DNA of 64,000 nt from Pseudomonas sp. RSB 5.4. Its GTDB lineage: Bacteria > Pseudomonadota > Gammaproteobacteria > Pseudomonadales > Pseudomonadaceae. Position numbers and translations under genes: made by a program. The DNA lies in the NCBI RefSeq assembly GCF_037126175.1, contig NZ_CP146986.1, positions 5,022,501 through 5,086,500 of the forward strand, read 5' to 3'. A model generated the notes under the pieces. It did not search any database and was not told the DNA's origin. It worked only from the letters and a program-made list of their open reading frames with translations. Each line of letters starts with the position of its first letter. The stretch's first letter is position 1. Positions 35,124 through 53,374 of this stretch are shown here, piece after piece.

Positions 35124-36350
35124 TTAAGGCCAGCGACGGAAAATCAACGAGGTGTTGACGCCACCAAAAGCGAAGTTGTTGTTCATCACGTATTCGTGGT
35201 GCATCGAGCGGAATTCGCCGCGCAGGTAATCGAGCTTGCCGCAGTGCGGGTCGACCTCATCGAGGTTGAGCGTGTGCACGTACAGGTCGCGATTGAGCAT
35301 TTCGATGCTGAACCACGACTCCAGCGCGCCGCAGGCCCCCAGCGTGTGGCCGAGGAAACTCTTCTGCGAGCTGATCGGCATGTGTTCGCCGAACAGACTG
35401 CTGGTCGCCAGTGTTTCGGCAATGTCGCCCTGTTCTGTAGCAGTGCCGTGACCGTTGACGTAACCGATGGCATCCGGCGTCAGTCCGGCGTCTTCCAGCG
35501 CCAGTTCCATGGCGCGGCGCATGGTGATCTGCTCGGGGCGGGTGGTGTGCTGGCCGTCGGCGTTGCTGCCGAAACCGACGATTTCCGCGTGGATCCGCGC
35601 ACCCCGGGCGAGGGCATGCTCCAGCTCTTCGAGCACCAGCATGCCGCCACCTTCGCCGATCACCAGACCGTCGCGGCCCTTGTCATACGGGCGTGGGCTG
35701 GTCTGTGGCGCATCGTTTTTCAGGCTGGTGGCGTAGAGCGCGTCGAAGACCATGGCTTCGGTCGGGCACAGCTCTTCGGCACCGCCGGCGAGCATCAGTG
35801 GCAAGCGACCGAACTTGATCGCCTCGTAGGCGTAGCCGATCCCCTGGCTGCCGCTGGTGCAGGCGCTGGACGTCGGGATCAGCCGCCCGGTGAGGCCGAA
35901 GAAGATGCTGATGTTGGCCGCGGTGGTGTGCGGCATCATCCGCACGTAGGAGTTGGCGTTGAGGCCTTCGGCCACGGAGTTCAGCAGCATGTTGCCGAAG
36001 GCCTTGATCTCGTCGGTGCTGCCGGTGGACGAACCGCAGGCCACGCCCATGCGCCCGTCCTTGATCGATTCGTCGCCGAGCAGGCCGGCGTCGGCCAGCG
36101 CCTGTTCCGCCGCGCCCACCGCCAGCCGTGACACCCGGCCCATGCTGCGCAGTTGCTTGCGGGTCCAGTGCGGCGGTACGACAAAATCATCGATCGGCCC
36201 GGCCAGACGGGTGTTGAGTTCGCTGAAGCGGTCCCACTCGTCCATGCGGCGGATGCCGCTGCGGTTGGCCGCGAAGTTGCCGGCGATGGTCTGCCAGTCG
36301 CTGCCCAGCGAGGTGATGCCGGCCATGCCGGTGACGACGACGCGCTTCAT
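35124..36350 (-). CDS. Beta-ketoacyl-ACP synthase, aryl polyene cluster (ApeR-like position)
   Basis: This FabF-type condensing enzyme of 408 residues has the complete Cys-His-His set: Cys in SSACTSGSQGIG, His in VNGHGTATEQGD and His in SFLGHTLGACGALE. The late NNNFAFGGVNTSL is also typical. In the type II system it would extend the aryl polyene chain with malonyl-ACP. It is the last gene in the operon; the order KS-DH-KR-KS (38728 to 35124) equals apeO-P-Q-R of known aryl polyene loci. The start ATG 36348-36350 overlaps the ketoreductase stop by one base with GGAGG nine bases ahead; a GTG six bases earlier is the alternative. Confidence 0.9.
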   Translation of the reverse strand: MKRVVVTGMAGITSLGSDWQTIAGNFAANRSGIRRMDEWDRFSELNTRLAGPIDDFVVPPHWTRKQLRSMGRVSRLAVGAAEQALADAGLLGDESIKDGRMGVACGSSTGSTDEIKAFGNMLLNSVAEGLNANSYVRMMPHTTAANISIFFGLTGRLIPTSSACTSGSQGIGYAYEAIKFGRLPLMLAGGAEELCPTEAMVFDALYATSLKNDAPQTSPRPYDKGRDGLVIGEGGGMLVLEELEHALARGARIHAEIVGFGSNADGQHTTRPEQITMRRAMELALEDAGLTPDAIGYVNGHGTATEQGDIAETLATSSLFGEHMPISSQKSFLGHTLGACGALESWFSIEMLNRDLYVHTLNLDEVDPHCGKLDYLRGEFRSMHHEYVMNNNFAFGGVNTSLIFRRWP

Positions 36351-37078
36351 CAGCACAAGCCTCCGTTGACCGCCAGGACCTGGCGGGTGATGTACGAGGC
36401 TTCCGCCGACATCAGGAAATTAACCGCAGCGGCCACCTCTTGCGGGGTGCCCATGCGTTGTGCGGGGATCATTTTCATCAGCTCTTCCACCGGCACGTTT
36501 TCGTCGAGCATCGCCGTGTCGATCAGGCCCGGCGCGACGCAGTTAACGGTGATTTTGCGCTTGCCCAGTTCGATCGCCAACGCTTTCGCCGCACCGATCA
36601 CCCCGGCCTTGGAGGCGCTGTAGTTGACCTGGCCACGGTTGCCGATTAATCCCGACACCGAGGTGATGCAGACGATCCGACCGGCGGCGCGACGACGGAT
36701 CATCGGCATCATCACCGGGTGCAGGACGTTGTAGAAACCGTCGAGGTTGGTACGCAGCACCACGTCCCAATCGTCGTCGCTCAGCGCCGGAAAGGCGCCA
36801 TCACGGGTCAGGCCGGCGTTGAGCACCACGCCGTAATAGGCGCCGTGGGTTTCGACGTCGGCTTCGAGAATGGTCTTGCAGGTTTCGCGGTCGGCGACGT
36901 CGAATTGCAGGATGCGCGCGTTGCGGCCCAACGCTTCGACTTCGGCTTTCACCGCTTGGGCTTCAGCCACGCCGCTGCGGCAATGCAGGACGATGTCGTG
37001 CCCGGCCTGCGCCAGACGCAAGGCAATGGCGCGGCCGATGCCACGGCTGGAGCCGGTGACCAGTACGGATTCAGTCAT
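36350..37078 (-). CDS. 3-oxoacyl-ACP reductase, FabG family, aryl polyene cluster (ApeQ-like)
   Basis: This NADPH-dependent short-chain reductase of 242 residues reduces the beta-keto group formed by the ketosynthases. The cofactor motif is TGSSRGIGRA (residues about 8-17). NAG is at LNAGLTRDG, the catalytic Ser lies in SVSGLIG, and the YxxxK motif is NYSASKAG. ATG 37076-37078 lies eight bases inside the upstream dehydratase gene. In aryl polyene synthesis each cycle stops at the enoyl stage, because no enoyl reductase is present, and that is true here. Confidence 0.92.
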   Translation of the reverse strand: MTESVLVTGSSRGIGRAIALRLAQAGHDIVLHCRSGVAEAQAVKAEVEALGRNARILQFDVADRETCKTILEADVETHGAYYGVVLNAGLTRDGAFPALSDDDWDVVLRTNLDGFYNVLHPVMMPMIRRRAAGRIVCITSVSGLIGNRGQVNYSASKAGVIGAAKALAIELGKRKITVNCVAPGLIDTAMLDENVPVEELMKMIPAQRMGTPQEVAAAVNFLMSAEASYITRQVLAVNGGLC

Positions 37079-37535
37079 CGTTCGACTCTCTGTTTTGTTC
37101 AAGGTATTGGCTGGGCTGCGGCGGGCGGAACACGTTCAGGCGGGCGCTAGCCTCGATGCCGGGGGCGTTGATGTGGCATTCGAAAACACCCATGCCGTTG
37201 TCGTCTTCCAGCGAACGGATGCCGTGGATGGTCAGTTCGCTGCCGGCCGGAAACGCCTCGACGTTGCACTCGAACTTGCGGCTGCCGAGGAGGAAGCCGA
37301 GCTCGACCGGTTTGCCCTTCAAGCGAGCATGACAACCGGCGAACGCGGCGACGCTCTGCGCCATCAACTCGATGCCGACCCACGCCGGCAGGCTGCCGTC
37401 GGGCAGGTTGAACAAGCCGTCGGGCTTGACCGTGAGGCGGGTGTGGATCTGCTCCTCGTCGAAGCTGAGGATGCGGTCGATCAGAATCATGTCGCCAGCG
37501 TGGGGCAGCAGTTCGGCGAGCGGCCAGTCGTTCAT
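37071..37535 (-). CDS. Hot-dog 3-hydroxyacyl-ACP dehydratase (ApeP-like)
   Basis: This 154-residue hot-dog protein begins MNDWPLAELLPHAGDMILIDRIL. The LPHAGDM--ID motif and the helix WVGIELMAQSVAAFAG (conserved Glu56) are typical of the ApeP family. Such proteins work with an ApeI-type partner to dehydrate hydroxyacyl-ACP and build the all-trans polyene. The partner domain is probably the C-terminal part of the fused protein at 49124-50803. The ATGA overlap with the upstream ketosynthase indicates coupling. Confidence 0.88.
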   Translation of the reverse strand: MNDWPLAELLPHAGDMILIDRILSFDEEQIHTRLTVKPDGLFNLPDGSLPAWVGIELMAQSVAAFAGCHARLKGKPVELGFLLGSRKFECNVEAFPAGSELTIHGIRSLEDDNGMGVFECHINAPGIEASARLNVFRPPQPSQYLEQNRESNDD

Positions 37536-38728
37536 GGGGCGTCTCCGATAATCAGGCTGACGTTGTTGCCGCCGAAGGCAAACGAGTTGCTCATCAGGTA
37601 GCGGGGTGCAGTGGACGACAGGCGCTCGCTCGCGGTCACCCACTTCAGCACCGGCAAGTCGGGGTCGGGCTGGGCATCCCAGACGTGTGGCGGCAAGGCT
37701 TGCTGCGGGTTGTCGGCGCTCAGGCTCAGCCAGCAAAACGCCGCTTCGAGGGCGCCGGCCGCGCCAAGGGTGTGGCCGGTCATCGGCTTGGTCGACGAGC
37801 AAGCCACGCCGTCGGGGAACAGCGTGGCGACGGCCAGACTTTCCATCGCATCGTTGTGCTGGGTCGCCGTGCCATGCAGGTTCAGGTAGCTGATTTGCGT
37901 CGCTTGCAGCTGTGCGCGGCTCAAGGCTTTCTGCATCGCTTGCAGGGCGCCGCGACCGCTCGGTTCCGGCGCGGAAATATGATGCGCGTCGGAGCTGGCG
38001 CCGCTGCCGAGCAGGGCAATGGCCGGGCCATCGCTGCGCTGCTTGCTCATCAGGAACAGCACCGCCGCTTCGCCGATGTTGATACCGTTGCGGTTGGCCG
38101 AGAACGGATTGCAGCGCTCGTCGGACACCGCTTCCAGCGCGCTGAAACCGTTGAGCGTCAGTTTGCACAGGCTGTCGACCCCGCCGCACAGCACCGCGTC
38201 GCACAGGCCCAGATCGAGCAGACGCTGCGCGCTCATCAACGCCCGCGCACTGGACGTGCAGGCGGTGGAAATCACATAGGCCGGGCCGCTGAGTTGCAGC
38301 CAGTCGGCGAGAAAGTTCGCCGGGGCGCCGAGTTCCTGTTGCCGATAGTCGTACTCGCCAGGGAACTGCTGCTCGCGAAGGTAGTGCGCCAGCCCGCGGC
38401 TGGCTTCGTCGATGCCCGAGGTGCTGGTGCCGAGCACCACGCCAATACGCTCACGACCGTAGGTCTGAATCGCCCGGTCGATGTCCTCGCGAATCTGCAG
38501 CGCGGCTTCCAGCAGCAGTTGATTGTTGCGGCTGCTCTGCTCGGCCAGTTCGGCCGGAATCGCCGCCAGCTCACCGTGCACCGCCGCTACCGGCAACTCA
38601 CGCCCGGCCACCCAGCCAGACTCGCGGCGCATGCCCGAGCAGTCACCGGCAAACAGGTTGTGCGCGACCTGTTGCTTGTCGCGGCCCAGCGCGCAGATCA
38701 CGCCGAGGGCATTGAGGTAGGCAGTCAT
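37532..38728 (-). CDS. Beta-ketoacyl-ACP synthase, aryl polyene cluster (ApeO-like)
   Basis: This 398-residue condensing enzyme carries the full triad: Cys in ISTACTSSARAL, His in NLHGTATQHND and His in MTGHTLGAAGALEA, with SNSFAFGGNNVSLII at the C-terminus. By position it corresponds to the KS of the KS/CLF pair that elongates the aryl starter. The chain-length partner could be the shorter protein at 52632-53360. The ATG overlaps the upstream lipoprotein stop (ATGA). Assignment to ApeO rests on gene order and family, not on a search. Confidence 0.9.
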   Translation of the reverse strand: MTAYLNALGVICALGRDKQQVAHNLFAGDCSGMRRESGWVAGRELPVAAVHGELAAIPAELAEQSSRNNQLLLEAALQIREDIDRAIQTYGRERIGVVLGTSTSGIDEASRGLAHYLREQQFPGEYDYRQQELGAPANFLADWLQLSGPAYVISTACTSSARALMSAQRLLDLGLCDAVLCGGVDSLCKLTLNGFSALEAVSDERCNPFSANRNGINIGEAAVLFLMSKQRSDGPAIALLGSGASSDAHHISAPEPSGRGALQAMQKALSRAQLQATQISYLNLHGTATQHNDAMESLAVATLFPDGVACSSTKPMTGHTLGAAGALEAAFCWLSLSADNPQQALPPHVWDAQPDPDLPVLKWVTASERLSSTAPRYLMSNSFAFGGNNVSLIIGDAP

Positions 38729-39336
38729 GGCGTCGGTTCACCGAGGGGAGAAACCCGATAGTGCGGGCCTTGGGGCAGGTTCAATTCAAAGCTCAACGGT
38801 TGTGCATATCGGATCGTCCAGCGCGGCGGCAGCGTGCGTTGCTTGCCCTGCTGCTGCGCGGCGGGGTAATTGCGCACCAGCTCGCCGGACGGGGTCAGGG
38901 CGAACAGCAACGCGGCAAACAGCTCCCGGGCTTCCGGGTTGGGCGGCAGCAGCCCGTCGGCCTGCCAGTGCCCATCGATCAGTTGCTGACGGGCCTGGGG
39001 AATGCCCAGCGGATCCATCATCGACCAGCGGATGCCAGGGCCTTCGCGCTGGATCACCAACAGCCAGTCCTGACGCTGATCGGCCTGTTGGCGTTCGATG
39101 TGCAGTTGCAGCGGCAATGGCAGCGTCGGGCTGCTCGCGGGCAACGGCGCCTGGCTGGCGCAACCACTCAGCAGCAGAGAGCAGAGCGCCAATATCAGCC
39201 ACCCCAGAATCCCTGTGGGAGCTGGCTTGCCAGCGATGGCTTTGGCACATCCAAAATTGAGTCCGACTGACCCACCGCTATCGCTGGCAAGCCAGCTCCC
39301 ACAGGGGGACAGGTGTGCAGGTCGATAGCGGTGCAT
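38725..39336 (-). CDS. DUF3261-type lipoprotein with an in-frame REP element in its N-terminus
   Basis: This is a 203-residue outer-membrane-type lipoprotein: hydrophobic LGWLILALCSLLLSGC gives a lipobox (LSGC, Cys near residue 59), then a DUF3261 domain with WSMMDPLGIPQARQQL. Family members occur in aryl polyene loci and probably help place the pigment in the outer membrane. ATG 39334-39336 overlaps the methyltransferase stop by one base, like all junctions in this operon, but the first 45 or so residues are translated repeat (39211-39306), open in frame. Either the signal peptide now has a very long N-region, or translation begins at the TTG near 39176. Confidence 0.75.
   Translation of the reverse strand: MHRYRPAHLSPCGSWLASDSGGSVGLNFGCAKAIAGKPAPTGILGWLILALCSLLLSGCASQAPLPASSPTLPLPLQLHIERQQADQRQDWLLVIQREGPGIRWSMMDPLGIPQARQQLIDGHWQADGLLPPNPEARELFAALLFALTPSGELVRNYPAAQQQGKQRTLPPRWTIRYAQPLSFELNLPQGPHYRVSPLGEPTP
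39211..39306. repeat. REP-type repeat (family A variant) inside the DUF3261 lipoprotein gene
   Basis: The arms GTGGGAGCTGGCTTGCCAGC and its inverse span 96 bases, exactly 32 codons, with no stop in the lipoprotein frame. All other copies but one are intergenic to whole transcription units. Insertion here lengthens the region before the signal-peptide core. Confidence 0.88.
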
Positions 39337-40061
39337 CAGATATCACCTTGCAATGGCTTGCGCGCGACGACATTCACCAACGTTTCCTCACGCTCGCCAA
39401 ACGGCTTCGGCTTGCGCACCCCAAACCGCTCCAGCAGTCCAAAATCCTGCGATCGGCTCCACCACAGATACGGGTACGAGACATTGCGTTCGTCGAACTC
39501 GAAACCCTGCTGGCGAATCATCTCCAGGTATTGCGCCGCGCTCTTCTGCACATGCATCGGATGGCGGAACAGCCAGCGAATCACCCAGGTATCAATGTAA
39601 GCCTCGGTGGACTCGGCGAACAGCAGATAACCGCCCGGCTTCAGTACGCGGTAGAACTCGGCGAGGGCTTTTTCCTGTTCGACCAGATGATGAAAGGTCT
39701 GGTGGCAGAACAGCAGGTCGACACTGGCGTCCGCCACATTGAGCGTCGCGCAATCGCTGCCGATCAGCTCCACATCGAAGCCCTGCCGCGCCGCTTCTTC
39801 GGCGCTCAGTTGCAGGCTGTGCGGATCGGCATCGACGCCGATCAGACGCTGTGGGGCGAAGGTCTGGCGCAGGTGGCGGAACGATTTGCCCTGACCGCAG
39901 CCGGCATCCAGCACCACCGGATGGGCCGGCAGCGACTCGCTGAACAATCCGCGCAAATTGTTGATCGCCACGCGCAGCACGTGGTGCTGCCAGGTGTGGC
40001 TGCGCAGGAACCAGAAACCGAAGCGGGTTTCCTCGACGTAGCTGTCGCTCAAGTAATTCAT
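39336..40061 (-). CDS. Class I SAM-dependent methyltransferase, aryl polyene cluster
   Basis: This 241-residue enzyme has SAM-binding motif I VLDAGCGQGKSFRHL (about 49-63), acidic motif II LIGVDADPHSL and post-motifs LKPGGYLLFAEST. Aryl polyenes often carry O- or C-methyl groups on the ring, so it probably methylates the aryl head. The ATGA overlap with the upstream flavoenzyme suggests that both tailor the same group. The substrate is inferred from context. Confidence 0.85.
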   Translation of the reverse strand: MNYLSDSYVEETRFGFWFLRSHTWQHHVLRVAINNLRGLFSESLPAHPVVLDAGCGQGKSFRHLRQTFAPQRLIGVDADPHSLQLSAEEAARQGFDVELIGSDCATLNVADASVDLLFCHQTFHHLVEQEKALAEFYRVLKPGGYLLFAESTEAYIDTWVIRWLFRHPMHVQKSAAQYLEMIRQQGFEFDERNVSYPYLWWSRSQDFGLLERFGVRKPKPFGEREETLVNVVARKPLQGDI

Positions 40062-41305
40062 GGGGCGTCCTTTGCACAGAGTTCGGAAATCATCTTCAAC
40101 CGGCGGCGCGCTTCGCTGACGAACGGGTTGCGTTCATCCCAGGCGTAACCGGCGAGGATCGAGCAGATCATCCGGCGAATCTCCGCCTGACTGTCTTGGT
40201 AAAAGATCACGTCCTGAAAGGTGCCGGCGTACCAGCCCTCGACGTAGCAGCGGAAGGTATCGACCCCGCGCTTGAGCGGTTCGGCGAACTCGCGCTGCCA
40301 GTCGACGGTTTCGCCCTGCAACTGCCGGTGCAAGACCGCCGCGGCCATGCTCGCCGAACGCATGGCGATGGTTACGCCGGAAGAGAACACCGGGTCGAGA
40401 AATTCTGCGGCATTGCCAAGCAGGGCGAAGCCCGGGCCGTGCAGGGTTTTCACATTCGCCGCATAACCGCCGAGGGTGCGCGCCGGGGTATCCCACACCG
40501 CGTTGTTCAATACACCGGCGAGGCTCGGGGTTTCGGCGATGAAACCGCGCAGGCAGGCATCCAGATCGCTGTCGCGCCCCTGGAAGTGATCGGCGGCAGC
40601 GACCACGCCCACCGAGCAGCGCCCGTTGCTGAACGGGATCGTCCAGAACCAGATGTCGCGGTGCTCGGGGTGGGTGGTGACGAGGATCTTCTCGCGGTCG
40701 AAGGCCGGGTTGTCGATGTGATCTTCAACGTGGGTGAACACCGCTTGGCGCACCGGGAAATTCGAGGGTGCTTCCAGATCGAGCAAACGCGACAGCACCC
40801 GCCCGTAACCGCTGGCATCGAGCACGAAATCCGCTTCGACGCGGTATTCGCTGCCGTCCTCGCGCAGCACATCGAGCTGCGGTCTGGCCCGGTCGAAATC
40901 CACGCGGACGATGGCATCGCCGTAGCGGATTTCGGCACCCTGCAATTCAGCCTGATCGGCCAACAGCTTGTCGAAGTCGGCGCGCTGCACCTGGAATGTG
41001 GTTGGCTTGCCTGCGGTGAAGGTGTCGCTGAAATCGAAGGCACTGTAGCGCTCGCCCCAGGCGAAGGCGGCACCGGTCTTACACTGGAACCCGGCGGCGT
41101 TGACGGCGTCGAGCATGCCGGCCTCTTCGACGAAATCCAGGCAATGGCTGAGCAGACTTTCACCGATGGAAAACCTCGGGAAATGCTGGCGCTCGATCAC
41201 CAGCACATCGTGGCCTTTGCGCTTGAGCAACGCGGCGGCGATGGCCCCGGAAGGGCCCGCGCCAATGATCACGACCTGACGGGATTCCATTTCAACGATT
41301 GGCAC
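40058..41305 (-). CDS. Flavin-dependent halogenase-like FAD oxidoreductase, aryl polyene cluster
   Basis: This 415-residue flavoprotein has the FAD dinucleotide motif VIIGAGPSGAIAA (residues 13-25) and FPRFSIGESLL (42-52). Two signatures of flavin-dependent halogenases are present: WFWTIP (219-224; consensus WxWxIP) and FLDPVFSSG (302-310; consensus FxxPxxSxG). Lys76 in QCKTGAAFAWG lies where phenol/pyrrole halogenases keep the catalytic lysine. These point to halogenation of the aromatic head, as in brominated xanthomonadins, rather than plain hydroxylation. The start is GTG 41305 with GGGAG five bases upstream; ATG 41290 lacks a site. It overlaps the antiporter gene by 14 bases. Family membership is firm; activity is inferred. 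Confidence 0.82.
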   Translation of the reverse strand: MPIVEMESRQVVIIGAGPSGAIAAALLKRKGHDVLVIERQHFPRFSIGESLLSHCLDFVEEAGMLDAVNAAGFQCKTGAAFAWGERYSAFDFSDTFTAGKPTTFQVQRADFDKLLADQAELQGAEIRYGDAIVRVDFDRARPQLDVLREDGSEYRVEADFVLDASGYGRVLSRLLDLEAPSNFPVRQAVFTHVEDHIDNPAFDREKILVTTHPEHRDIWFWTIPFSNGRCSVGVVAAADHFQGRDSDLDACLRGFIAETPSLAGVLNNAVWDTPARTLGGYAANVKTLHGPGFALLGNAAEFLDPVFSSGVTIAMRSASMAAAVLHRQLQGETVDWQREFAEPLKRGVDTFRCYVEGWYAGTFQDVIFYQDSQAEIRRMICSILAGYAWDERNPFVSEARRRLKMISELCAKDAP

Positions 41306-42452
41306 GTGAGCTCCCGAGCGCAGTGGCGGTGGTTTTCAGGGGCGCGCGGTGCAGGCCGATCAGGGCCGGCAACAGCGTCGCGATCAGGCCCATCAGCATC
41401 AGCGCGAAGTACAGCGCCGGGCTGATGAGCTGTTGTTGCAGCAGCAGGTTGAGAAAGACGATTTCACTCAGCCCGCGAATATTCAGCAGCACGCTTTCGC
41501 GCCAGCGGCTGGCGCCTTCGAACGACGCACCGGCCCAGCCCAGGCCGAGCCAGTTGCCGAGCAGTTTACTGGCAATCGGCAACAGCAGCAGCGCCGCCCA
41601 TTGCACCGCGCCGAGGCTGGCGAGGGCGCTGTGCACGTCGATCTGCACGATGCCGAAGGTGAGGATCAGCGGGATCGCGATCCATGTCTGCAAACGGCTC
41701 ATCCACCGCGCCGGCAATGGCAGCACCAACGGCACCTTCAGCAAGGCCATGCACAGCAGATAACCGATGCCGAAAATCAGCGCGTTGAGTTTGTAGTGCT
41801 CGGCCAGCACCAGCAGCGCAAAGAAGCCGAGGCTGTAGGTCAGCGGGCGACGCACGCGCAACAGATGCAACAGCGCCGGCACGCAGGCCAGACCCAGCGG
41901 CAGCAACAGGCTGCTCAGATGCAGACTGCCCTGAGCCAGGCCGAACAGCGTCCAGCAGGTCAGATCGATGAGGATTGCGGTCTGCACCAGACGCCGGGTG
42001 GCGGCGGGCGGGTAATTGATGTGGCGCAGGTACAGGTACAGCACCGGGATCGCGGTAATCGCGAATACCAGACCGATCGCCAGCGAGTTCAGCCACGGTT
42101 GCGCCGGCAGCAGCCAGCAGGCGGCGGCCAGACCGCAGGCGAACGGCACGGTAAAACTCGGCACGGCGATTTTCACGCTCTGGCGGTCCAGTCGCAGGTC
42201 GATCACATCACTGAGAATGTGCCCGAGCAACAGCGCGAAACTCAGGCTGTAGAGGTCTTTCAGCCAACCCGGCGCAATCAGTTCGGCACCGCTGAGTTGC
42301 CAGCCCGGTTCGATGCAGAAGTACATCAGCAGCGGCAACCCGAAGCTGGCCAGCAGCAACTGGCTGACGATCGGGATCAGGCCGAAATGCCGGCCGATAC
42401 GGGTCACCACAGCGAACAGCGCCAGGGCCAGCAGCCAGAAACCGACGACCAT
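41292..42452 (-). CDS. CPA2-type cation/proton antiporter-like membrane protein, aryl polyene cluster
   Basis: This 386-residue polytopic protein has about 11-12 helices. Family marks are VFAITAIPVLYLYL, LIDLTCWTLF (an Asp in the core helix) and LLNIRGLSEIVFLNLLLQ followed by ISPALYFALMLMGLIATLL, close to the Kef/CPA2 signature. It lacks the cytoplasmic RCK/TrkA domain of KefB/C. Its job in a pigment operon is unknown; it could balance ions or protons for the neighbouring RND-type exporter. Its ATG overlaps the exporter's stop by one base. Confidence 0.75.
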   Translation of the reverse strand: MVVGFWLLALALFAVVTRIGRHFGLIPIVSQLLLASFGLPLLMYFCIEPGWQLSGAELIAPGWLKDLYSLSFALLLGHILSDVIDLRLDRQSVKIAVPSFTVPFACGLAAACWLLPAQPWLNSLAIGLVFAITAIPVLYLYLRHINYPPAATRRLVQTAILIDLTCWTLFGLAQGSLHLSSLLLPLGLACVPALLHLLRVRRPLTYSLGFFALLVLAEHYKLNALIFGIGYLLCMALLKVPLVLPLPARWMSRLQTWIAIPLILTFGIVQIDVHSALASLGAVQWAALLLLPIASKLLGNWLGLGWAGASFEGASRWRESVLLNIRGLSEIVFLNLLLQQQLISPALYFALMLMGLIATLLPALIGLHRAPLKTTATALGSSRANR

Positions 42453-44791
42453 CACGCTGTCGGCTCCGCGACGCTGGCGCTGTGGACGTGACGTCCGGCC
42501 CACGGCGCCAGAATGAAACTGAACGCCAGCCCCAGGCTCACCGCCAGGCCGAAGTTGCTCACCGCCGGCGTGCTCGACACCGCCAGCAGACCGAACGACA
42601 ACCAGGTCGTCAGCGCCGCCAGCAAGGTGCCCAGCAAGCTGACAGCCGCACCGCCAACCTGCTCACGCATGAGGATCGCGTAATCGACGCTGATCGCCGT
42701 CACCAGCAGCAGGCCGAACAGGCTGAACAGGGTCAGCGGCTGACCGAGCCAACCGAGGCTGGCAAGGCTGCACAGCGCTGCCAGCAGCGGCAGGGCGACG
42801 ATGCGCAAGGCGCCGCCGAAGCCGAACGGCACGATCAGCACCAGCACGATCAACACACAGGAGGCGAGTTTCAGTTCGGCGGCGCTGATCTGAGTCGCGG
42901 CGAACACGTTGTTCAATTCGCCGAGACGATCCACCAGCATCACGCCCGGCAAGTCCAGGGCTTGCACCCGCAGCAGTGACGGATTGTTCAGACCTTGCAG
43001 GCTGGTCATCGCCGCCACGCCGTCAGCGGTCGGGCCGAGCCACAGCGTGCGGTAAGGCTCGCCCAGCGGCCCGGCGAGTGCCGCGTCGATGTCCTCGGCG
43101 GGCAGACTCTGCAACTGCTGCAGTTCGGTTTGCAACGCCGCGAGCGGTACGCCGAGATCCAGTAATGGCTGCCAGTATTGCGGCAGTTTGCTCAGCGCTT
43201 CGCGAACCTGCTGTTGCTGGCTCGGCGGACTGAGCAGTTGATCGAGGGCCAGATAGCCTTGCAGTTTGTCGAGGTTGACCAGTTGCTGCAGGCGCTCGCT
43301 CAGTGCGGCCTGACGCTCCAGCAGTTGCTGCTGATTGGCGGCGCGCACGAGGAAGAACTGGCTGGTCGGCTGATAGCCGGTGATGCGTGCGATGGTCTGC
43401 GCTTCATCGGTCAGGCGTTGTGGCGCACCGACCCACTGGCGGATGTCGTTCTTGCTTTGCAGCTGCACCAGACCGCCAACGCAGAACGCGACCAACAGCG
43501 CCAGCAGCACCGGGGTGCGCACGTGTTCGAGCAGAGTTTCGCGCAGTTGCACCAGACGCTCGGCCAGACGCAGCGGCCATTGCGCCGGGACCAGTTCAAC
43601 ATTTTTCAGTAGGGCCGGCAGCAGGCACACCGCCGACAGATACGCCCCGAGCAAACCGGCGGCGGAGAACACCGCGATTTGCGTCAGCGCCGGGAAGGGC
43701 GTCCAGGCCAGCGCCAGATAACCGATGGCGCTGGTGATCAGGCTCAGCGTCAGCCCGGAGAGTGTCAGGCGCAGGGCTGGCCAGCTGCGCCACGGCTTCA
43801 GGCTCCAGCTTTTCGACAGATAGTGCAGCGGATAATCCACCGCCACGCCGATCAGGCTGGAACCAAGCACCAGCGTCATCACGTGCATGTGGCCGAACAG
43901 CGCCACGCAAGCCACCGCGCCGAACAGCATGCCCACCAGCACCGGCACGAACGCCAGCAACACCCGCCAGCGGCGAAACACCAACAGCAGCAACAGCAGA
44001 ATGCCGAGAGTGGCGCCGCCGCCGACCCAGGTCATTTCGCGGGTGGCTTGTTGCTGACCGTTGGCGGCGTACAGCAGACCACTGGCGGCCAACAGTTGCA
44101 CGTCGGATTTCGCCGCCTGCTCGCGACTGTGCTGCAGCAGATCGGCGACTTTCAGCGGCAGGTTCATGTCGAAGGCATTGCCGGTGGTGCGCGCGCGCAG
44201 CAGCACCCAGCTCTTGCCGTCGGCATCGGCGACCAGTGCGCCGCTGCCGATGTCCAGTTGCACCGCGCCGTGCTTCGGCTGGCTGTTCTGGATACGCCCG
44301 GTGAGACCCAGCCAGTCGTCCTGGCTCGGCACCAGGGTAAAACCGTTGAACGGATCGAACAGTGCCTGCACCCGTTGCTGAATGAACGCATCGGGATGCT
44401 CGGTCAGCAGTTGCCGATCATCCGCCGAAAGCATCGCCAGTCGCCCTTGCAGCAATTGTGTGCGCAGCGCTGGCAGATCCGCCTGCAGGTTCCACTGGAC
44501 CTTTTCGAACAGACCGCTGGCCTGCCATTGCTCGCCGAGGGTCTGCGCCATGGCCACCGCTTGCTGGCGATCGGCGTGGCCGACCAGCACCAGCATTTCC
44601 CGATTGAGCGGTTCCTGCATACGTTGTTCGGCGCGCAGTTCGAGGGCATCAGGGTTGGTGCCGGGCACCAGTTCCATGAGGTTGGCCGACAGCGGCGCAT
44701 CGCCGCGCCACTGCCACCCGGCCAGCGCGACGACCGCCAGCAGCAGGATCAGGAACAGCCACGGCAGCCTGCGTTCACTCGGCAAAGTCAT
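42452..44791 (-). CDS. MMPL/RND-family exporter, aryl polyene cluster
   Basis: This 779-residue inner-membrane protein has the MMPL architecture: one N-terminal helix, a periplasmic loop (about 35-240), five to six helices (about 245-400, TWVGGGATLGILLLLLLVF, VLGSSLIGVAVDYPLHYLS), a second loop (about 430-630) and the last helix bundle with ISVDYAILMREQVG. Acidic residues in the VAVDYPLHY and ISVDYAI helices fit proton relay sites. Such proteins in aryl polyene loci are thought to move the lipid-linked pigment toward the outer membrane, working with the LolA-like protein encoded just upstream (17-base overlap). Confidence 0.88.
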   Translation of the reverse strand: MTLPSERRLPWLFLILLLAVVALAGWQWRGDAPLSANLMELVPGTNPDALELRAEQRMQEPLNREMLVLVGHADRQQAVAMAQTLGEQWQASGLFEKVQWNLQADLPALRTQLLQGRLAMLSADDRQLLTEHPDAFIQQRVQALFDPFNGFTLVPSQDDWLGLTGRIQNSQPKHGAVQLDIGSGALVADADGKSWVLLRARTTGNAFDMNLPLKVADLLQHSREQAAKSDVQLLAASGLLYAANGQQQATREMTWVGGGATLGILLLLLLVFRRWRVLLAFVPVLVGMLFGAVACVALFGHMHVMTLVLGSSLIGVAVDYPLHYLSKSWSLKPWRSWPALRLTLSGLTLSLITSAIGYLALAWTPFPALTQIAVFSAAGLLGAYLSAVCLLPALLKNVELVPAQWPLRLAERLVQLRETLLEHVRTPVLLALLVAFCVGGLVQLQSKNDIRQWVGAPQRLTDEAQTIARITGYQPTSQFFLVRAANQQQLLERQAALSERLQQLVNLDKLQGYLALDQLLSPPSQQQQVREALSKLPQYWQPLLDLGVPLAALQTELQQLQSLPAEDIDAALAGPLGEPYRTLWLGPTADGVAAMTSLQGLNNPSLLRVQALDLPGVMLVDRLGELNNVFAATQISAAELKLASCVLIVLVLIVPFGFGGALRIVALPLLAALCSLASLGWLGQPLTLFSLFGLLLVTAISVDYAILMREQVGGAAVSLLGTLLAALTTWLSFGLLAVSSTPAVSNFGLAVSLGLAFSFILAPWAGRHVHSASVAEPTA

Positions 44792-45377
44792 GTTGCTCCG
44801 TGTCGCTCAACGGTTGACCGGCGCTGCTGTCTTTCATGCGCAGCACGGTGCTGTCGCCCTGGGTTTCCAACAGTTCGATGGTCTGCACCAGTTCACCGCC
44901 GTCGATATTGATCTGCTTGAACACTTGCTTGAGCAGCAGCGAACGCGGGGTCAGAGTGAGTTTCCACTGCTGTGCGTCGCCGCTCAGGGCCAGCTCGAAA
45001 TCCCGTTGCAGGCCGCTGCTGTCACCTTGCAGCACGGCGAGGAACAAGCGGTTCTGCTCGGCCCCGGCGCTCTTGTTCGGCAGCAGTTGCCAAGCGTTGC
45101 CATCGCGTCGCGCGATGCCGTTGGCGGTGATGCGGTAATCCTGTTGCAGCGGGGTCTTGAGCAGCCAGAGCAGGCCGTGATTTTTCGCCAGGACGAAGTT
45201 GCCCTTGCTGATCAACGGTTGAGGCAGGGCGCGCAGATGTTTTTCCTGAATGAACTGGCCGTGGATCACTTCCGGTTTCGCCAGTTGTTCGCTGAGCTGT
45301 TGCAGGTCGAAGGCGTTGGCCAGCGTCGACACGGCGAGCAGCGCCATCGCGCCAAGGCATTTGCAGAACAGGTTCAT
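44775..45377 (-). CDS. LolA-like outer-membrane lipoprotein carrier protein, aryl polyene cluster
   Basis: This 200-residue periplasmic protein has the signal peptide MNLFCKCLGAMALLAVSTLANA cleaved near residue 22. The mature domain is LolA-like, with GQFIQEKHLRALPQPLISKGNF near its start and a half-barrel of hydrophobic strands. It would shield a hydrophobic aryl polyene lipid during transit across the periplasm to the outer membrane. Chromosomal lolA is elsewhere, so this is a cluster-specific paralogue. ATGA overlap with the thioesterase gene. Confidence 0.85.
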   Translation of the reverse strand: MNLFCKCLGAMALLAVSTLANAFDLQQLSEQLAKPEVIHGQFIQEKHLRALPQPLISKGNFVLAKNHGLLWLLKTPLQQDYRITANGIARRDGNAWQLLPNKSAGAEQNRLFLAVLQGDSSGLQRDFELALSGDAQQWKLTLTPRSLLLKQVFKQINIDGGELVQTIELLETQGDSTVLRMKDSSAGQPLSDTEQHDFAE

Positions 45378-45799
45378 CGCAGCATCCTTTCCACCGCATC
45401 GGTGAACACTTTGGGTGAGGCCAGTTGCATCTCGCGGCTGCTGATCTCGACCGCCACCTGCACCGAGCTGGCACGGGTCAGGCGCTCGCCGGTCTGCAGG
45501 TCGGTGATCAGATAATTGATCTTCAAACGGTTCTCCCACTCCACCAGACTGGCGCGTACGTTCAAGCGCTGGCCGAACACCGCGCCACGTACATAACGCA
45601 GTTGCAGGTCGATGATCGGCCACGCGTAGCCGGACTCGGACATCTGCGTGTAGTTGTGGCCGATCTGGTCGAGCAGCGCGCAGCGCGCCACTTCCAGGTA
45701 CTTCACGTAATGCCCGTGCCAGACCACGTGCATGGTGTCGATGTCAAAGAACGGCACGAGGATTTCCGTGTCGGCGTGCAGCACTCCGGCGCTACGCAT
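45374..45799 (-). CDS. Acyl-CoA/acyl-ACP thioesterase, 4HBT (YbgC-like) family
   Basis: This 141-residue hot-dog thioesterase has the catalytic motif FFDIDTMHVVWHGHYVKYLE (Asp near residue 19, with HGHY). It could release or edit acyl-ACP intermediates; thioesterases of this type occur in aryl polyene loci (ApeK position). The ATG lies eight bases inside the ammonia-lyase gene. Whether it acts on the mature polyene or on starter acids is unknown. Confidence 0.85.
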   Translation of the reverse strand: MRSAGVLHADTEILVPFFDIDTMHVVWHGHYVKYLEVARCALLDQIGHNYTQMSESGYAWPIIDLQLRYVRGAVFGQRLNVRASLVEWENRLKINYLITDLQTGERLTRASSVQVAVEISSREMQLASPKVFTDAVERMLR

Positions 45800-47336
45800 G
45801 CAGCCTCCAGTGTTGTTCGGCGATGCGTTGCAGGCACAGGCGCAGTTCGCCTTCCAGCGCGCGGTCTTCGATGACCGGCGGGAAGTCCTTGGCCAACTCT
45901 TCGTGCATGGCGGCCAGCGAAGGTGGCAGCGCGCGTGCGCCTTCATCGCGCCCGCGCAACCAGACGCCCTGATTGGCCGCGAGCAACGTGGCGGCGGCGA
46001 CCTGTTCGGTCAGTTCCAGTACGCGGATCGCGTCGCGGGCGGCGATGGTGCCCATGCTCACCTTGTCCTGGTTATGGCACTCGGTGGAGCGTGAGAACAC
46101 GCTGGCCGGCATGGTGTTTTTCAGCGCTTCGGCGGTCCAGGCGCTGGTGCCGATCTGCACGGCCTTGAAACCGTGATTGATCATGGCGCGATCCGCCGGG
46201 GCGCCGGACAGATTGCTCGGCAAACCGTGGTTGTAGCGCTCGTCCACCAGCAGTGCGAGTTGCCGGTCGAGCAGGTCGGCGACGTTGGCCACCAGATTTT
46301 TCAGGCTGTCCATGGCGAACGCGATGTGCCCGCCGTAGAAGTGCCCGCCGTGCAGCACGCGCTCGGCGTCGGCGTCGATGATCGGGTTGTCGTTGGCGCT
46401 GTTGAGTTCGGTCTCGATGAACGCACGCAGCCAGTTCAGGCTGTCGGCCAGCACCCCGAGCACGTGCGGGGCGCAGCGCAGCGAGTAGCGATCCTGCAGG
46501 CGATGCAGCGGCGCGGTCGGCGCGTCGATCGCCAGATCCTTGCGCAGCCATGCGGCGACTTGCATCTGCCCCGGATGCGGTTTGGCGGCGAACAGACGCT
46601 CGTCGAAGTGTTCCGGATTGCCTTGCAGCGCGACCACGTTGAGCGCGGTGATGCGCGTGGCCAGTTGCAGCAGATAGTCGGCGCGGGCGAAGGCGAGGCA
46701 GGCGAGACCGGTCATCACCGCCGTGCCGTTCATCAAGGCCAGCGCTTCTTTCGGACGCAGCACCAATGGCGTCCAGCCCAGTTCGCGATGCACGTCGGCC
46801 GCTTGCCGGCGTTCGCCACGGAACAACACTTCGCGCTCGCCGGACAGGGTGGCGGCGACGTAGGACAGCGGCGTCAGATCGCCGCTGGCCCCGACCGAAC
46901 CTTCTTCGGGGATCAGCGGCAGGATGTCGTGTTCAAGGAAGGCGTGCAGGCGCTCCAGCAGTTCGATGCGCACCCCGGACACGCCGTGACACAGCGACTG
47001 CAAGCGCGCCGCCAGCACCGCGCGGGTGGCTTGCGGGTCGAGCAGTTTGCCGAGGCCGCAGCCGTGGAAGGTGTAGAGATGACGCGGCAGTGCCTCGACG
47101 TGATGCAGCGGCACCGCGACCACGCAGGAGTCGCCGTAACCGGTGGTCACGCCGTAGATCACGCCTTCCTTGTCCAGCAGCGAATCGAGAAACCGCGCGC
47201 CTTTGGCGATGCGCTCGCGGTAGGCGGCGTCGCTCTGCAACTGCACGGGCGCCTGACGGTTGGCCAGGGCCAGCACGTCTTCGATGCGCAAAGGGCGTTC
47301 GCCGAAGGTTACCGGCTCATGGGTTGGCGTCGTCAT
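45792..47336 (-). CDS. Aromatic amino-acid ammonia-lyase (HAL/PAL/TAL family), aryl polyene cluster
   Basis: This 514-residue MIO enzyme eliminates ammonia from an aromatic amino acid. The Ala150-Ser151-Gly152 triad in GSVGASGDLTPLSYVA forms the MIO cofactor, and the catalytic Tyr is Tyr61 (VIYGVTTGYGDS). At the substrate-selectivity pair it has Phe90-His91 (LYTFHGCGLG), where bacterial TAL has His-Leu, PAL Phe-Leu and HAL Ser-His. Inside a pigment operon, and far from hut genes, it most likely makes coumarate or cinnamate as the aryl starter, rather than degrading histidine. Exact substrate is open. It overlaps the upstream acyltransferase by 20 bases. Confidence 0.87.
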   Translation of the reverse strand: MTTPTHEPVTFGERPLRIEDVLALANRQAPVQLQSDAAYRERIAKGARFLDSLLDKEGVIYGVTTGYGDSCVVAVPLHHVEALPRHLYTFHGCGLGKLLDPQATRAVLAARLQSLCHGVSGVRIELLERLHAFLEHDILPLIPEEGSVGASGDLTPLSYVAATLSGEREVLFRGERRQAADVHRELGWTPLVLRPKEALALMNGTAVMTGLACLAFARADYLLQLATRITALNVVALQGNPEHFDERLFAAKPHPGQMQVAAWLRKDLAIDAPTAPLHRLQDRYSLRCAPHVLGVLADSLNWLRAFIETELNSANDNPIIDADAERVLHGGHFYGGHIAFAMDSLKNLVANVADLLDRQLALLVDERYNHGLPSNLSGAPADRAMINHGFKAVQIGTSAWTAEALKNTMPASVFSRSTECHNQDKVSMGTIAARDAIRVLELTEQVAAATLLAANQGVWLRGRDEGARALPPSLAAMHEELAKDFPPVIEDRALEGELRLCLQRIAEQHWRLHA

Positions 47337-48264
47337 CGGTCTTCCAGAAAGGGTAAAAGTTGAACCATTGGTGCGGGGCTTCGAGGCAATAGTGACTCAG
47401 GCGCTGCGCGTAGCGGGTGGCCCACTGATGAATGACCTGCTCGCGCTCGCGGCGCGTCCACGTCACGCTGTCGGCGAACGGTTCGAGGGTCAGGCGATAG
47501 TGGCCGTCCGCTTGTTTCAGGCACATCAGCAGATTGACCGGGCATTTGAGCAAGCCGGCCAGCAGCCACGGGCCTTGCGGAAACGCTGCGGGGTGGCCGA
47601 GAAAGTCCACGCTGACGCTGCGCCCGCCGTGCAACGGCACGCGGTCGCCGGCAATCGCCAGCCATTCGCCGCGCTCCAGGCGTTCGTGCAGTTGCAGCAT
47701 GATCACCGGGTCCAGTTCGCTGACCTGAATCAGGCGCAGATTGGTCGCCCCGGCTTCGCCCAGCAAGCGGTTGAACTGCTCGGCGTGCTTGGTGTGCACC
47801 AGCACGTTCATGGTGACCTTTTCGCCGATCTCCGCCAGCGCCCGGCACACTTCGAGGTTACCCAGATGCGCGCCGACCAGCAGTTGCCCGCGACTGCCGC
47901 GCAACTGATTGCGCAGCAGTGCCGGGTCGATGATTTCGATCTGCTCGATACGGATCTTGCCGTTCCACACGTCGAGCTTGTCGAGCAGCGAATCGGCGAA
48001 CGCCATGAACTGGCGGAACACCCGCCAATAACTCGGGCGCAATTCGGCGCGGTTGCTCCAGTCAGCCAGCCGTTGCTGGTATTGCCAGGCACTGTTGCGC
48101 GCGGTGCGGCCGAACAGGAAGAAGTACAGGACGATGCCGTACAGCAGCGGACTGAGCAGGCGCCGGCCAAGCACTTTGGCGGCGAACGCGGTGAATTTCA
48201 TCAGCAGGAAGCTGCCGCGCTCTTCGCGGTCGGCCCAGTGCTTCTTGTCGGTCTCGACGCTCAT
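47317..48264 (-). CDS. LpxL/HtrB-like acyltransferase, aryl polyene cluster
   Basis: This 315-residue membrane-associated acyltransferase of the lipid A acyltransferase family has a catalytic HX4E motif, HLGNLE (near residue 130), the arginine region AIAGDRVPLHGGRSV and FPQGPWLLAGLLKCPVN. It would esterify the polyene carboxylate onto a lipid or sugar acceptor, anchoring the pigment in the outer membrane. The ATGA overlap with the upstream glycosyltransferase fits joint assembly of the lipid head. The frame open to 48540 is the shadow of the glycosyltransferase. Confidence 0.86.
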   Translation of the reverse strand: MSVETDKKHWADREERGSFLLMKFTAFAAKVLGRRLLSPLLYGIVLYFFLFGRTARNSAWQYQQRLADWSNRAELRPSYWRVFRQFMAFADSLLDKLDVWNGKIRIEQIEIIDPALLRNQLRGSRGQLLVGAHLGNLEVCRALAEIGEKVTMNVLVHTKHAEQFNRLLGEAGATNLRLIQVSELDPVIMLQLHERLERGEWLAIAGDRVPLHGGRSVSVDFLGHPAAFPQGPWLLAGLLKCPVNLLMCLKQADGHYRLTLEPFADSVTWTRREREQVIHQWATRYAQRLSHYCLEAPHQWFNFYPFWKTDDDANP

Positions 48265-48995
48265 GCTCGCCACCGGCGCCAGAGGATGACGGGCAGGCGC
48301 AGCAGCATGCCGAAGAACAACCGGGTGTGCATACTGGAAATCAGCGCGTTGTCGTGGAACAGGCGGAAGTGCGAGACGCCGTCCAGCGGGTAATGCACGC
48401 TGGTCTGCAACCAGCGCATCGGCTGGTTGCGCCACGACAGGCGCACGAGGATGTCGGAGTCGAAATCCATGCGCTTGCCGACTCGCGCCGAGTCGATCAG
48501 CGCCAGCGTCGGGGCCAGCGGATAGACGCGAAAGCCGCACATTGAATCGCGAATCTGCAGCGACAGCGTGTTGATCCAGACCATCACGTGGGTCAGATAA
48601 CGCGCGTACAAACGGCCCTTGGGCACGCTCTCGTCAAACAGCGGATAACCGCAGATCATCGCGTCCGGGTGGGCGCGGGATTCCTCGACGAAACGGGCGA
48701 CGTCGTGCAGGTCGTGCTGGCCATCGGCGTCCACTTGCAGGGCATGAGTGAAGCCCAGCCGCGCCGCTTCGCGCAGGCCGGTCATCACCGCGCCGCCCTT
48801 GCCCTGATTGAGGGTCAGGCGCACCAGATGCACGTGGTCGCGTTCGGCCAGCGCATCCAGCACTCGCGCGCAGGACGGGGTGCTGGCGTCATCCACCAGA
48901 ATGCACGGCAGGCCTTGGGCGAGCAGCGCGTCGACCACGGTGCCAATCGCGGTTTCATGGTTGTAGACCGGAATCACGGCGCAAGGGTTATGCAT
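48261..48995 (-). CDS. Family 2 glycosyltransferase, aryl polyene cluster
   Basis: This 244-residue GT-A enzyme has the nucleotide-sugar fold VIPVYNHETAIGTVVDALL, the first acidic site LVDDAST and the DxD-type metal site DADGQHD, and no membrane anchor except a C-terminal amphipathic stretch. It probably adds a sugar to the glycerol or lipid carrying the polyene. ATG 48993-48995 is chosen with GGGG nine bases upstream; ATG 49004 overlaps that site. It is separated from the upstream gene by a palindromic repeat, the only large gap in the operon. Confidence 0.85.
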   Translation of the reverse strand: MHNPCAVIPVYNHETAIGTVVDALLAQGLPCILVDDASTPSCARVLDALAERDHVHLVRLTLNQGKGGAVMTGLREAARLGFTHALQVDADGQHDLHDVARFVEESRAHPDAMICGYPLFDESVPKGRLYARYLTHVMVWINTLSLQIRDSMCGFRVYPLAPTLALIDSARVGKRMDFDSDILVRLSWRNQPMRWLQTSVHYPLDGVSHFRLFHDNALISSMHTRLFFGMLLRLPVILWRRWRA

Positions 48996-49010
48996 TGACG
49001 ACATCCCCAC

Positions 49011-49121
49011 TGTGGCGAGGGAGCTTGCTCCCGCTCGAGTGCGCAGCACTCGCTCGCAGTTTTTCGTGATCCGAGTTTGGGGCCGCTTCGCAGCCCAGCG
49101 GGAGCAAGCTCCCTCGCCACA
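49011..49121. repeat. Palindromic repeat (family C variant) inside the aryl polyene operon
   Basis: The arms TGTGGCGAGGGAGCTTGCTC (from 49011) and its inverse (to 49121) flank about 60 bases. It fills the gap between the ligase-dehydratase gene and the glycosyltransferase gene, where the rest of the operon shows overlapping stops and starts. Confidence 0.88.
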
Positions 49122-49123
49122 GG

Positions 49124-50803
49124 TTATGCATCGGCGGCTCCTAGCAGGATTCGCCCGCTGGAGCAGGTCGCGGTGTCATTGCGGTAGGCGAAATACAGCT
49201 TGCCGCGTTCGGGATCGAAACGCAGGTGCAGCTGGATTTCATCGCCCGGGCGCACCAGTTGCTGGAATTTCAGCACTTCCATGCCGGCAAATTTGCCGGG
49301 CAGGTTCAGCAGTTGCTGACCGAGGTTCAGTGCCCATTCGACCTGGACTACGCCGGGCAGCACCGGGGCCTTGGGGAAGTGACCGCTGAAGTAGGCCAGG
49401 TCCGGCGGAACACTCAATTGCAGGCTCCACTCGCCGTCGGTTTCGAGCTGTTCCAGCACTTCCGGGGCTTTCGGCCGTGGCGCCAGCAGCAGCGCTTCGA
49501 TGTCGGCCTGCGGCAGCTTGCCCTGGCTGTTCAGCGGCAGTTGCCGCACCAGACGCCAGCGCCGGGGCAAGGCCAAGGCTTCGCAATGCTGGCTCAGGTG
49601 TTTGCGCAGGGCTTCGGTCAGGTTGCGACGGCCCTGTTCACGCAAGGCAAACAGGCCTGCGTCGCTGAGCACCAGCAAGGCCCCCAGCACCGCACGGTTT
49701 TCCTGAACCACGCCCAGGCGTGCTTCGGCGACCCAGTCGTGGGCGATCAGCGCCTGTTCCAGCATCGGCAGGGAGATACGCTTCTCTTCGAGTTTGACGA
49801 TGCGGTCCAGCCGCCCGAGCAGTTCGAAACGCCCGTCGGCAGCGATGCGCGCGGCGTCGGCGGTGTGTTCGACATGCCCGGCGGGCAAGTACGGTGAAGC
49901 GATCAGCAGGGCGCCGTCGCTGTCCTGACTCAGTTCAACCCCGGCGAAGGGCTGCCACAGGCTGGCGCCCTGACGCCAGCCGATGCCACCGGTTTCCGAG
50001 CTGCCGAGGATTTCCGTCGGCCACTGGTGCAGGCGTTGCTGCAGACTCTGTGCTGCGTCTGCCGGTAACGCACCGCCGGAGGAAAACACCCGGCGCACGG
50101 CACTCAGAGCCGGCCAGTCGAGGTTGTCGCCCATGCGCTTGAGCAGCGCCGGGCTGGCGACCCAGGCGAAGGCCGGGTGTTCGCGGCTGGCGCGCTGCAG
50201 GTCTTCCGAGAATGCCAGTTGCTTGCGCCCGAACGGACGTCCGGCGCACAGCGGCCACAGCACCCGGAACAACAAACCGTAGATGTGCTGGGTGGCGACG
50301 CTGCCGATGATCCAGGCTTCACCGAGATCCGCGCCCCACAGTTGCTCCAGTGCCTCGACCTCGTTGGCCAGTTGGCGCAAGGTCTTGTCGATGCGCTTGG
50401 GTTCACCGCTGGAGCCGGAGGTGCACAGGCTCAGGCGGCACTGCACGAGATCGAGTTCGGCGCCGGGCAGGGCCGGCTGCAGCAGATCGCTCAAGTGAGC
50501 ATCATCGGGGTGATCGCTCAACCACAGATCGACCTCACTCGACCAGCGCTGGCGGGTCTGCGCTTGCAGGTCGGAGGGCAGCAGGACGGCGACGCCGGCG
50601 CGCCAGGCTCCGAGCAGGGCGATGGCGAGGTCGGCGGCATCTTCCAGATGTACCGCCATGCGCTGCACGCCGCGTGCCTGCAGGCCGGCGGCAACGCTCA
50701 GCGCCTGCTCGCGCAGTTGCGTGTGGTCGAGCGCCGGGGCGGCGCTGATCGCGCGCTCCGGCAGGGCCTTGAGCAACAGTTGCTCAAGTTTTATCCAGTT
50801 CAT
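49124..50803 (-). CDS. Fused acyl-ACP synthetase (adenylation) and hot-dog dehydratase (ApeH-ApeI-like)
   Basis: This 559-residue protein has two parts. Residues 1 to about 445 are an ANL-superfamily adenylating domain with P-loop [11 protein letters not shown] (128-138), motif [26 protein letters not shown] hinge region and the A10 lysine segment NSQGKLPQ. Residues from about 465 are a FabZ/FabA-like dehydratase with [20 protein letters not shown] (His475). The first part would load the aryl acid starter onto an ACP; the second pairs with the ApeP-like protein for dehydration. In other loci these are separate genes. The ATG overlaps the membrane-protein gene by four bases. Confidence 0.88.
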
Positions 50804-51345
50804 TTACGGCCTCTTACCCGTTGTCGTATCAGCCATTCAATGGCAAACATCAGGCCGATCAATCCGTAGGAGATCAGGCCGGTGTACAACATCCACCAAT
50901 GCAGCGGCGCCCACAGGGTCAGGAGCGCGGCGCACAAACCGTTGCAGAAGAAAAACACGCTCCAGGCCACGGTGACCTGGCGGGTGTAGCGGATCGCCTC
51001 GGGCGGCAGGTGCGGCTCGCGCAGTCGCGCCAGGCGCTCGACCATCGGCGGCCCGTATTTCAGGCTCAGGCTGAACAGCACCAGCATGAAGCCGCTGATC
51101 AACACCGGATACCAGCGCAGCAACAGCGGACTGTCGAACAGCGCCAGCAGCAGGCAGAACACGATCGCCACACAGGCCATCCAGCGGCTGCCGGGCTTGC
51201 GTTCGCCGGTCAGCGCGCGCGCCAGCCACAGGCCGCCCAGCAGCAGTCCGAACTGCCACGGGGCGAAGTGCTCCATGCCGAAATACACCGCAAAGGGGTA
51301 CAGCAGCCCCGCCAACAGCAGGCCGAGGCCGATCAATCGGCTCAT
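50800..51345 (-). CDS. Integral membrane protein, COG4648-type, aryl polyene cluster
   Basis: This 181-residue protein has about six hydrophobic segments, with a conserved stretch REPHLPPEAIRYTRQVTVAWSVFFFCNGL and a basic C-terminus RQRVRGRK. Relatives occur next to the ACP genes in aryl polyene loci (ApeG position), often as a small membrane protein of unknown function. It overlaps genes on both sides by four bases. No enzyme motif is seen. Confidence 0.75.
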   Translation of the reverse strand: MSRLIGLGLLLAGLLYPFAVYFGMEHFAPWQFGLLLGGLWLARALTGERKPGSRWMACVAIVFCLLLALFDSPLLLRWYPVLISGFMLVLFSLSLKYGPPMVERLARLREPHLPPEAIRYTRQVTVAWSVFFFCNGLCAALLTLWAPLHWWMLYTGLISYGLIGLMFAIEWLIRQRVRGRK

Positions 51346-53360: not shown

Positions 53361-53374
53361 CCCGCCCCTGCGGG
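53361..53374 (-). promoter_or_regulatory. Hairpin covering the ribosome-binding site of the aryl polyene operon
   Basis: On the minus strand CCCGC-AGGG-GCGGG ends at the base before the ATG of the first operon gene. The AGGGG ribosome-binding sequence lies in the loop and stem. Read on the plus strand the same bases form a stem followed by CTTTTA, which is terminator-like but follows no plus-strand gene. Confidence 0.5.

Follow-up and report, generated by a model that had tools for sequence, protein, structure and literature searches.

A halogenase-type flavoenzyme, ordinary for aryl polyene clusters, with an aspartate-to-asparagine change in Pseudomonas sp. RSB 5.4

The 64,000-nucleotide stretch of Pseudomonas sp. 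RSB 5.4 analysed here (contig NZ_CP146986.1, positions 5,022,501 to 5,086,500; the window) contains an aryl polyene (APE) cluster on the minus strand, from 53399 to 35124. Inside it, an open reading frame (ORF) with a GTG start at 41305-40058 on the same strand encodes a halogenase-like protein of 415 residues; the plus strand across 40058-41305 is likewise free of stops. The protein is an intact enzyme of halogenase type, ordinary for such clusters, and is best read as a tailoring enzyme. The explanation favoured, with about even confidence, is that it serves the APE/flexirubin family as a flavin enzyme of the flavin-dependent halogenase type; its reaction is perhaps bromide-dependent, and the Pseudomonas pigment may plausibly be halogenated. 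Motifs, predicted fold, gene cluster and conservation were observed; the chemistry, the halide, the substrate and a halogen in the Pseudomonas pigment are proposed. The features of the gene are as follows.

40058..41305, minus strand: FAD (flavin adenine dinucleotide)-dependent halogenase-like protein, 415 residues (translation; domain, profile and structure comparisons)
41078..41080, minus strand: codon of Lys76 (in KTGAAF), the residue that lines up with the Lys conserved among reference halogenases
40634..40651, minus strand: WFWTIP (W.W.IP motif), residues 219-224 (translation, homologue alignments)
40376..40402, minus strand: FLDPVFSSG (F..P..S.G motif), residues 302-310 (translation, homologue alignments)
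40412..40414, minus strand: codon of Asn298, which puts 'GN' in place of the 'GD' found in six reference halogenases and in the more distant APE group (alignments)

An earlier note on this DNA had named both motifs and a Lys76 in halogenase-like context without giving the strand, and all are present in the minus-strand translation, with Lys76 within FQCKTGAAFAWG. Of the window's 269 stop-to-stop segments that reach 100 residues, one each contained W.W.IP, F..P..S.G and K.GA.F, and the first two co-occurred in one. A wider count used 4,273 segments from 61 other loci, picked for holding a homologue. There, W.W.IP occurred in 62 segments, all 62 of which also carried F..P..S.G and 61 K.GA.F. F..P..S.G and K.GA.F by themselves are less specific, since 76 and 71 of these segments carry them. 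The motif set is thus a family mark and not noise. By sequence alignment, Lys76 shares one column with the Lys of five reference halogenases and of 3nix and, in a separate alignment, with that of PltA. The gene was the sole match to PF04820 in the whole genome; the model is unspecific, with matches in five of 14 control genomes. PADLOC returned nothing beyond a weak desaturase match (29.7 bits).

The nearest solved relatives were, in order, 3nix, ChlB4, PltA, Mpy16, FasV and Bmp2, with hydroxylases farther off. In the predicted-fold comparison the eight entries following 3nix were all halogenases (Z from 42.5 to 37.1, Bmp2 twice), hydroxylases starting at 35.4. Profile scores were 127-180 bits for the closest nine halogenase sequences, 73-79 bits for CtcP and PltM and at most 43 bits for p-hydroxybenzoate hydroxylases. 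By profile and by fold the nearest solved relatives are mostly halogenases, and characterised hydroxylases or reductases, which as closest relatives would by the earlier note have refuted its reading, did not take that place. The fold is common to ChlB4 (7fco), PltA (5dbj), Mpy16 (5buk), Bmp2 (5bva), FasV (8zop) and CndH (3e1t), and in sequence alignments the reference halogenases share the Lys, W.W.IP and F..P..S.G with the Pseudomonas protein. PltA, Mpy16, ChlB4 and CndH also have Phe, as it does, where tryptophan halogenases have Glu. The reference halogenases are 23-29% identical to it in structural alignments and differ in having GD for its GN. The entry 3nix, labelled a flavoprotein/dehydrogenase of Cytophaga hutchinsonii, an organism that makes a flexirubin-type pigment, has GN as well.

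The homologues fall into two groups. Among 398 sampled genomes of the phylum (homologue cut-off E <= 1e-20), 62 carried a homologue: 47 belong to group I (at least 46% identity, own genome included) and 15 to group II (best match 28-37%). The group II sequences retain GD and differ from the Pseudomonas protein at the C-terminus. Loci of up to 20 kb were fetched from all 46 other group I genomes, from ten of the 15 group II genomes and from five more of the G228 family, which includes Vibrio-like relatives, giving 51 group I and ten group II loci. A tree was calculated from 40 sequences: the Pseudomonas protein, P0168, P0242, 30 of the 61 loci (all ten of group II and 20 of the 51 of group I), five halogenases, 3nix and L189; the reference halogenases were trimmed to their aligned stretches, and PltA and Bmp2 were left out. 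Groups I and II formed one clade with 3nix (34/34; ultrafast bootstrap, UFBoot, 100) against the five halogenases and L189. Within the clade, group II was recovered complete (10/10, UFBoot 90), and group I (24/24) had UFBoot 42 with the long-branched L177 inside it; in a FastTree version with midpoint rooting the supports were 0.538 and 0.186, respectively. L189 is the one homologue lacking W.W.IP (it has WLWHIV); being a single sequence, it is not a proper non-halogenase control. The models for the non-halogenase flavoenzymes QhpG (NF049967) and LodB (NF038171), meant to supply sequence controls, gave no match over the cut-off in 114 genomes each. Among 11 weak QhpG-model places, L180-L185 and L188 carried all three motifs and were group II-like and L186 carried two; L187, L190, L191 and L192 were left out of this comparison.

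Conservation was assessed in the loci and in the best 120 proteins per search, the latter being tilted to close relatives (240 group I proteins plus the query). Among these matches all three motifs were present in 241/241 group I proteins, as in 51/51 group I and 10/10 group II loci, and the combined group I sets (291 distinct sequences, query included) kept them without exception. The best 120 group II proteins all had W.W.IP and F..P..S.G, and 105 had K.GA.F; the other 15 (P0330-P0356) had K.GVEF or K.GGEF, retaining the Lys itself in every case. The residue pair ahead of the second motif separates the groups: GN in 241/241 of the group I proteins listed and 51/51 group I loci, GD in 120/120 of the group II proteins listed and 10/10 group II loci. 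The five reference halogenases, PltA and L189 align with GD and 3nix with GN.

The gene is also widespread. With PF13723 over its cut-off as APE marker, 89 of the 398 genomes carried the marker and 61 both marker and homologue, G176 having a homologue without the marker. Thus 61/89 APE-marker genomes have the gene, or 61/78 outside family f14, to which 11 of the 28 marker genomes without a homologue belong. In its own genus the homologue was found in ten of 11 sampled genomes, its own counted. In 50/51 group I and 8/10 group II loci, three or more of the eight ape queries scored at least 60 bits, a count in which three ketosynthase queries may match one and the same gene; the loci below three were L127, L152 and L153. 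Named Pseudomonas loci carried the gene with intact motifs in 80/80 cases, up to 98% identical, which is no survey because these are the top 80 among the 447 matches to the query protein. Some group II relatives among the matches listed are named as Gallionellaceae and other Nitrosomonadales. Rarity at genus level is ruled out, the gene being common in sampled genomes of the genus. The earlier note had read the locus as a halogenase-type enzyme in an APE cluster beside a methyltransferase, all of which stands (the two genes overlap by ATGA), and had called a halogenated and methylated product unusual, which does not: the homologue is common in APE-marker genomes and in the genus, and flexirubins, differing in methylation and/or chlorination (PMC3992019), and xanthomonadins, differing in methylation and bromination (PMC3691225), rule out the combination as unusual.

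Some loci deserve separate mention. In L127 (genome G328), which has a group I homologue, the fetched stretch showed a ketoreductase (KR) match alone, and its cluster may have decayed or moved. The plasmid records NZ_CP119140.1 and NZ_CP119142.1, labelled Neisseria gonorrhoeae, hold a homologue of about 55% identity that aligns in two pieces; it may be interrupted, or the records mislabelled. G060, G112, G212 and G230 (family f39; L169) have two divergent homologues near each other on one contig.

Calling such APE-cluster genes halogenases is already in print: halogenase genes were described as accompanying the ketosynthase-chain-length factor (KS-CLF) pair in several genomes (Wang 2013; PMC3691225), arcA of Azoarcus was annotated as a halogenase (Schoner 2014; PMC3949708), and by those annotations Xanthomonas and Azoarcus carry a like gene in a like cluster. 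Database names of group I proteins include 'tryptophan 7-halogenase'. Searches of open-licence papers turned up no report of enzyme activity for the APE flavoprotein family. In favour of halogenation, there are chlorinated flexirubins and brominated xanthomonadins, and a Lysobacter cluster without the gene gives a pigment lacking bromine isotope ions (PMC3691225). The flexirubin of Chitinophaga pinensis is given as C43H54O4 (PMC3992019). The orthologue P0168 of A. fischeri retains every motif. A protein 98% identical to P0168 is encoded at locus L175, probably from A. fischeri or very near it, where an O-methyltransferase and an APE chain-length factor adjoin. The A. fischeri pigment is reportedly halogen-free.

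Two points qualify the halogenase reading. Asn298 stands where the FAD-binding GD motif has Asp, and in the alignments this replacement is the only clear difference from the halogenases compared. The Asp contacts FAD and is general to the flavoprotein superfamily; it is not known to be a published halogenase criterion. The Azoarcus pigment arcuflavin is described as C41H52O4 and non-brominated despite arcA in the cluster (PMC3949708). With such a pigment from a related cluster holding such a gene, the motifs alone are no proof of a halogenated Pseudomonas pigment. The growth medium is given as lysogeny broth (LB) with 0.5% NaCl (PMC3949708), so that bromide at most was missing.

These points also favour, as a less likely alternative, a flavoenzyme descended from halogenases that performs another aryl polyene reaction (for example polyene redox or isomerization, or peroxide chemistry) on a product that is not halogenated. 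GD is changed to GN in every group I sequence examined, the homologue accompanies 61/89 APE markers yet arcuflavin from a chloride medium is described without halogen (PMC3949708), and the E. coli APE is reported from a cluster without the gene (PMC8253772), so the flavoenzyme is not required for the core polyene. Set against this, ArcA of Azoarcus may fall in the other group, the solved nearest relatives apart from 3nix are halogenases, and a loss of halogenation would hardly leave the Lys, W.W.IP and F..P..S.G invariant. It is improbable that the protein hydroxylates the aromatic head group in the manner of p-hydroxybenzoate hydroxylases: that family scored far below the halogenases by profile, W.W.IP and the Lys are halogenase features, and the formula of arcuflavin would by count call for no additional oxygen. 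A decayed enzyme that travels with the cluster is very improbable: in its favour, searches of open-licence papers turned up no pigment structure from this genus; against it, the frame is open, the stop overlaps the methyltransferase start and the motifs are kept across distant families. Of these readings, a bromide-limited halogenase accounts best for the pigment facts, followed by a repurposed enzyme.

If the protein is a halogenase, a separate flavin reductase would supply reduced FAD (FADH2), which with O2 and halide would form hypohalous acid (HOX) at the flavin. After passing the W.W.IP strand, HOX would reach Lys76. The likely substrate would be an electron-rich intermediate of the aryl polyene, probably bound to an acyl carrier protein (ACP) and halogenated beside the phenol or on the chain, at about the time when the product of the overlapping methyltransferase gene methylates it. 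A broader and more tentative proposal, which we rate below even, takes group I as a distinct class with the halogenase motifs kept and Asp changed to Asn. Counting both groups, about two thirds of the sampled APE-marker genomes have such a flavoprotein, yet at least one carrier pigment is halogen-free; on this proposal, either bromination in one of the largest bacterial pigment families was missed in bromide-poor media or the halogenase active site catalyses a different, undescribed polyene reaction. Were the flavoenzyme a working, halide-dependent halogenase, pigment structures published from media low in bromide could be incomplete, and the APE flavoenzymes would form a large halogenase reservoir; if it is no halogenase, halogenase motifs predict halogenation poorly. 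For this Pseudomonas by itself the gene is routine, and what is notable is the Asn for Asp and the mismatch between the motifs and the analysed pigments.

The cluster brings together in one run KS/CLF, KR, dehydratase (DH), ACPs, AMP-ligase, glycosyltransferase/acyltransferase (GT/AT), LolA and RND genes. The genes around the halogenase-like gene, all on the minus strand, are listed below.

35124..36356, minus: beta-ketoacyl-ACP synthase, ApeR-like (PRK09116 over cut-off)
36350..37102, minus: 3-ketoacyl-ACP reductase, ApeQ-like (domain match)
37071..37535, minus: ApeP-like dehydratase (74.5 bits, cut-off 27; matched stretch 37083-37535)
37532..38728, minus: beta-ketoacyl-ACP synthase, ApeO-like (PRK09185 over cut-off)
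38725..39336, minus: small lipoprotein-like protein, longest ORF (assigned by position; a weak DUF3261, ApeN-like, match scores 13.2 bits at E 0.084, short of the 22.3-bit cut-off)
39336..40061, minus: S-adenosylmethionine (SAM)-dependent methyltransferase (domain match; ATGA overlap with the FAD gene)
41292..42503, minus: multi-spanning membrane protein (judged from the sequence itself; Pfam gave no match)
42452..44791, minus: MMPL/RND exporter, ApeM-like (domain match)
44775..45623, minus: LolA-like carrier, ApeL-like, longest ORF, true start probably internal (domain match)
45374..45946, minus: 4HBT thioesterase, ApeK-like, longest ORF (domain match)
45792..47336, minus: aromatic amino acid ammonia-lyase (domain match)
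47317..48540, minus: lipid A type acyltransferase, longest ORF (domain match)
48261..49049, minus: family 2 glycosyltransferase, longest ORF (domain match)
49124..50803, minus: AMP-ligase fused to an ApeI-like dehydratase (domain match)
50800..51345, minus: membrane protein at the ApeG (COG4648) place (position as in Table 1 of PMC8253772; no Pfam match)
51342..51596, minus: acyl carrier protein (domain match)
51606..51908, minus: acyl carrier protein (domain match)
51847..52842, minus: lysophospholipid acyltransferase, ApeD-like, longest ORF (domain match)
52632..53399, minus: chain-length-factor-like ketosynthase, ApeC-like (PF13723)

The halogenase-like gene overlaps its upstream ORF by 14 bases, and given this and the ATGA overlap it is probably translated together with its neighbours. 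Twenty group I loci were inspected, and in 13 of them the gene is flanked, judging by length and look, by a long exporter-like and a small lipoprotein-like ORF. The membrane-like ORF at 41292-42503 sits between exporter and flavoenzyme and has a relative in 6/51 group I loci (tblastn, E <= 1e-4); the Azoarcus cluster is described as holding arcG, annotated as an Na+/H+ antiporter (PMC3949708). With apeA-R of E. coli CFT073 the Pseudomonas cluster shares two ACPs, ketosynthases and chain-length factor, KR, two DH, ligase, GT/AT, LolA, RND, thioesterase and methyltransferase; the flavoenzyme, the ammonia-lyase and the antiporter-like membrane protein, all present in Pseudomonas, are absent from Table 1 of PMC8253772.

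FlxA of the flexirubin pathway was shown to be an ammonia-lyase giving the 4-coumarate start (PMC3992019), and by analogy the ammonia-lyase in the Pseudomonas cluster suggests that 4-coumarate may serve as starter here. An ammonia-lyase match of at least 200 bits was found in 39/51 group I loci within the fetched stretches, so its tie to the flavoenzyme is not strict.

Just past the cluster, at 34064-35094 on the minus strand, lie two adjacent small secreted-looking ORFs of 147 and 168 residues, the former having no Pfam match over the cut-off. The two are alike (both contain ...DGSVKFYL...) and look tandem-duplicated.
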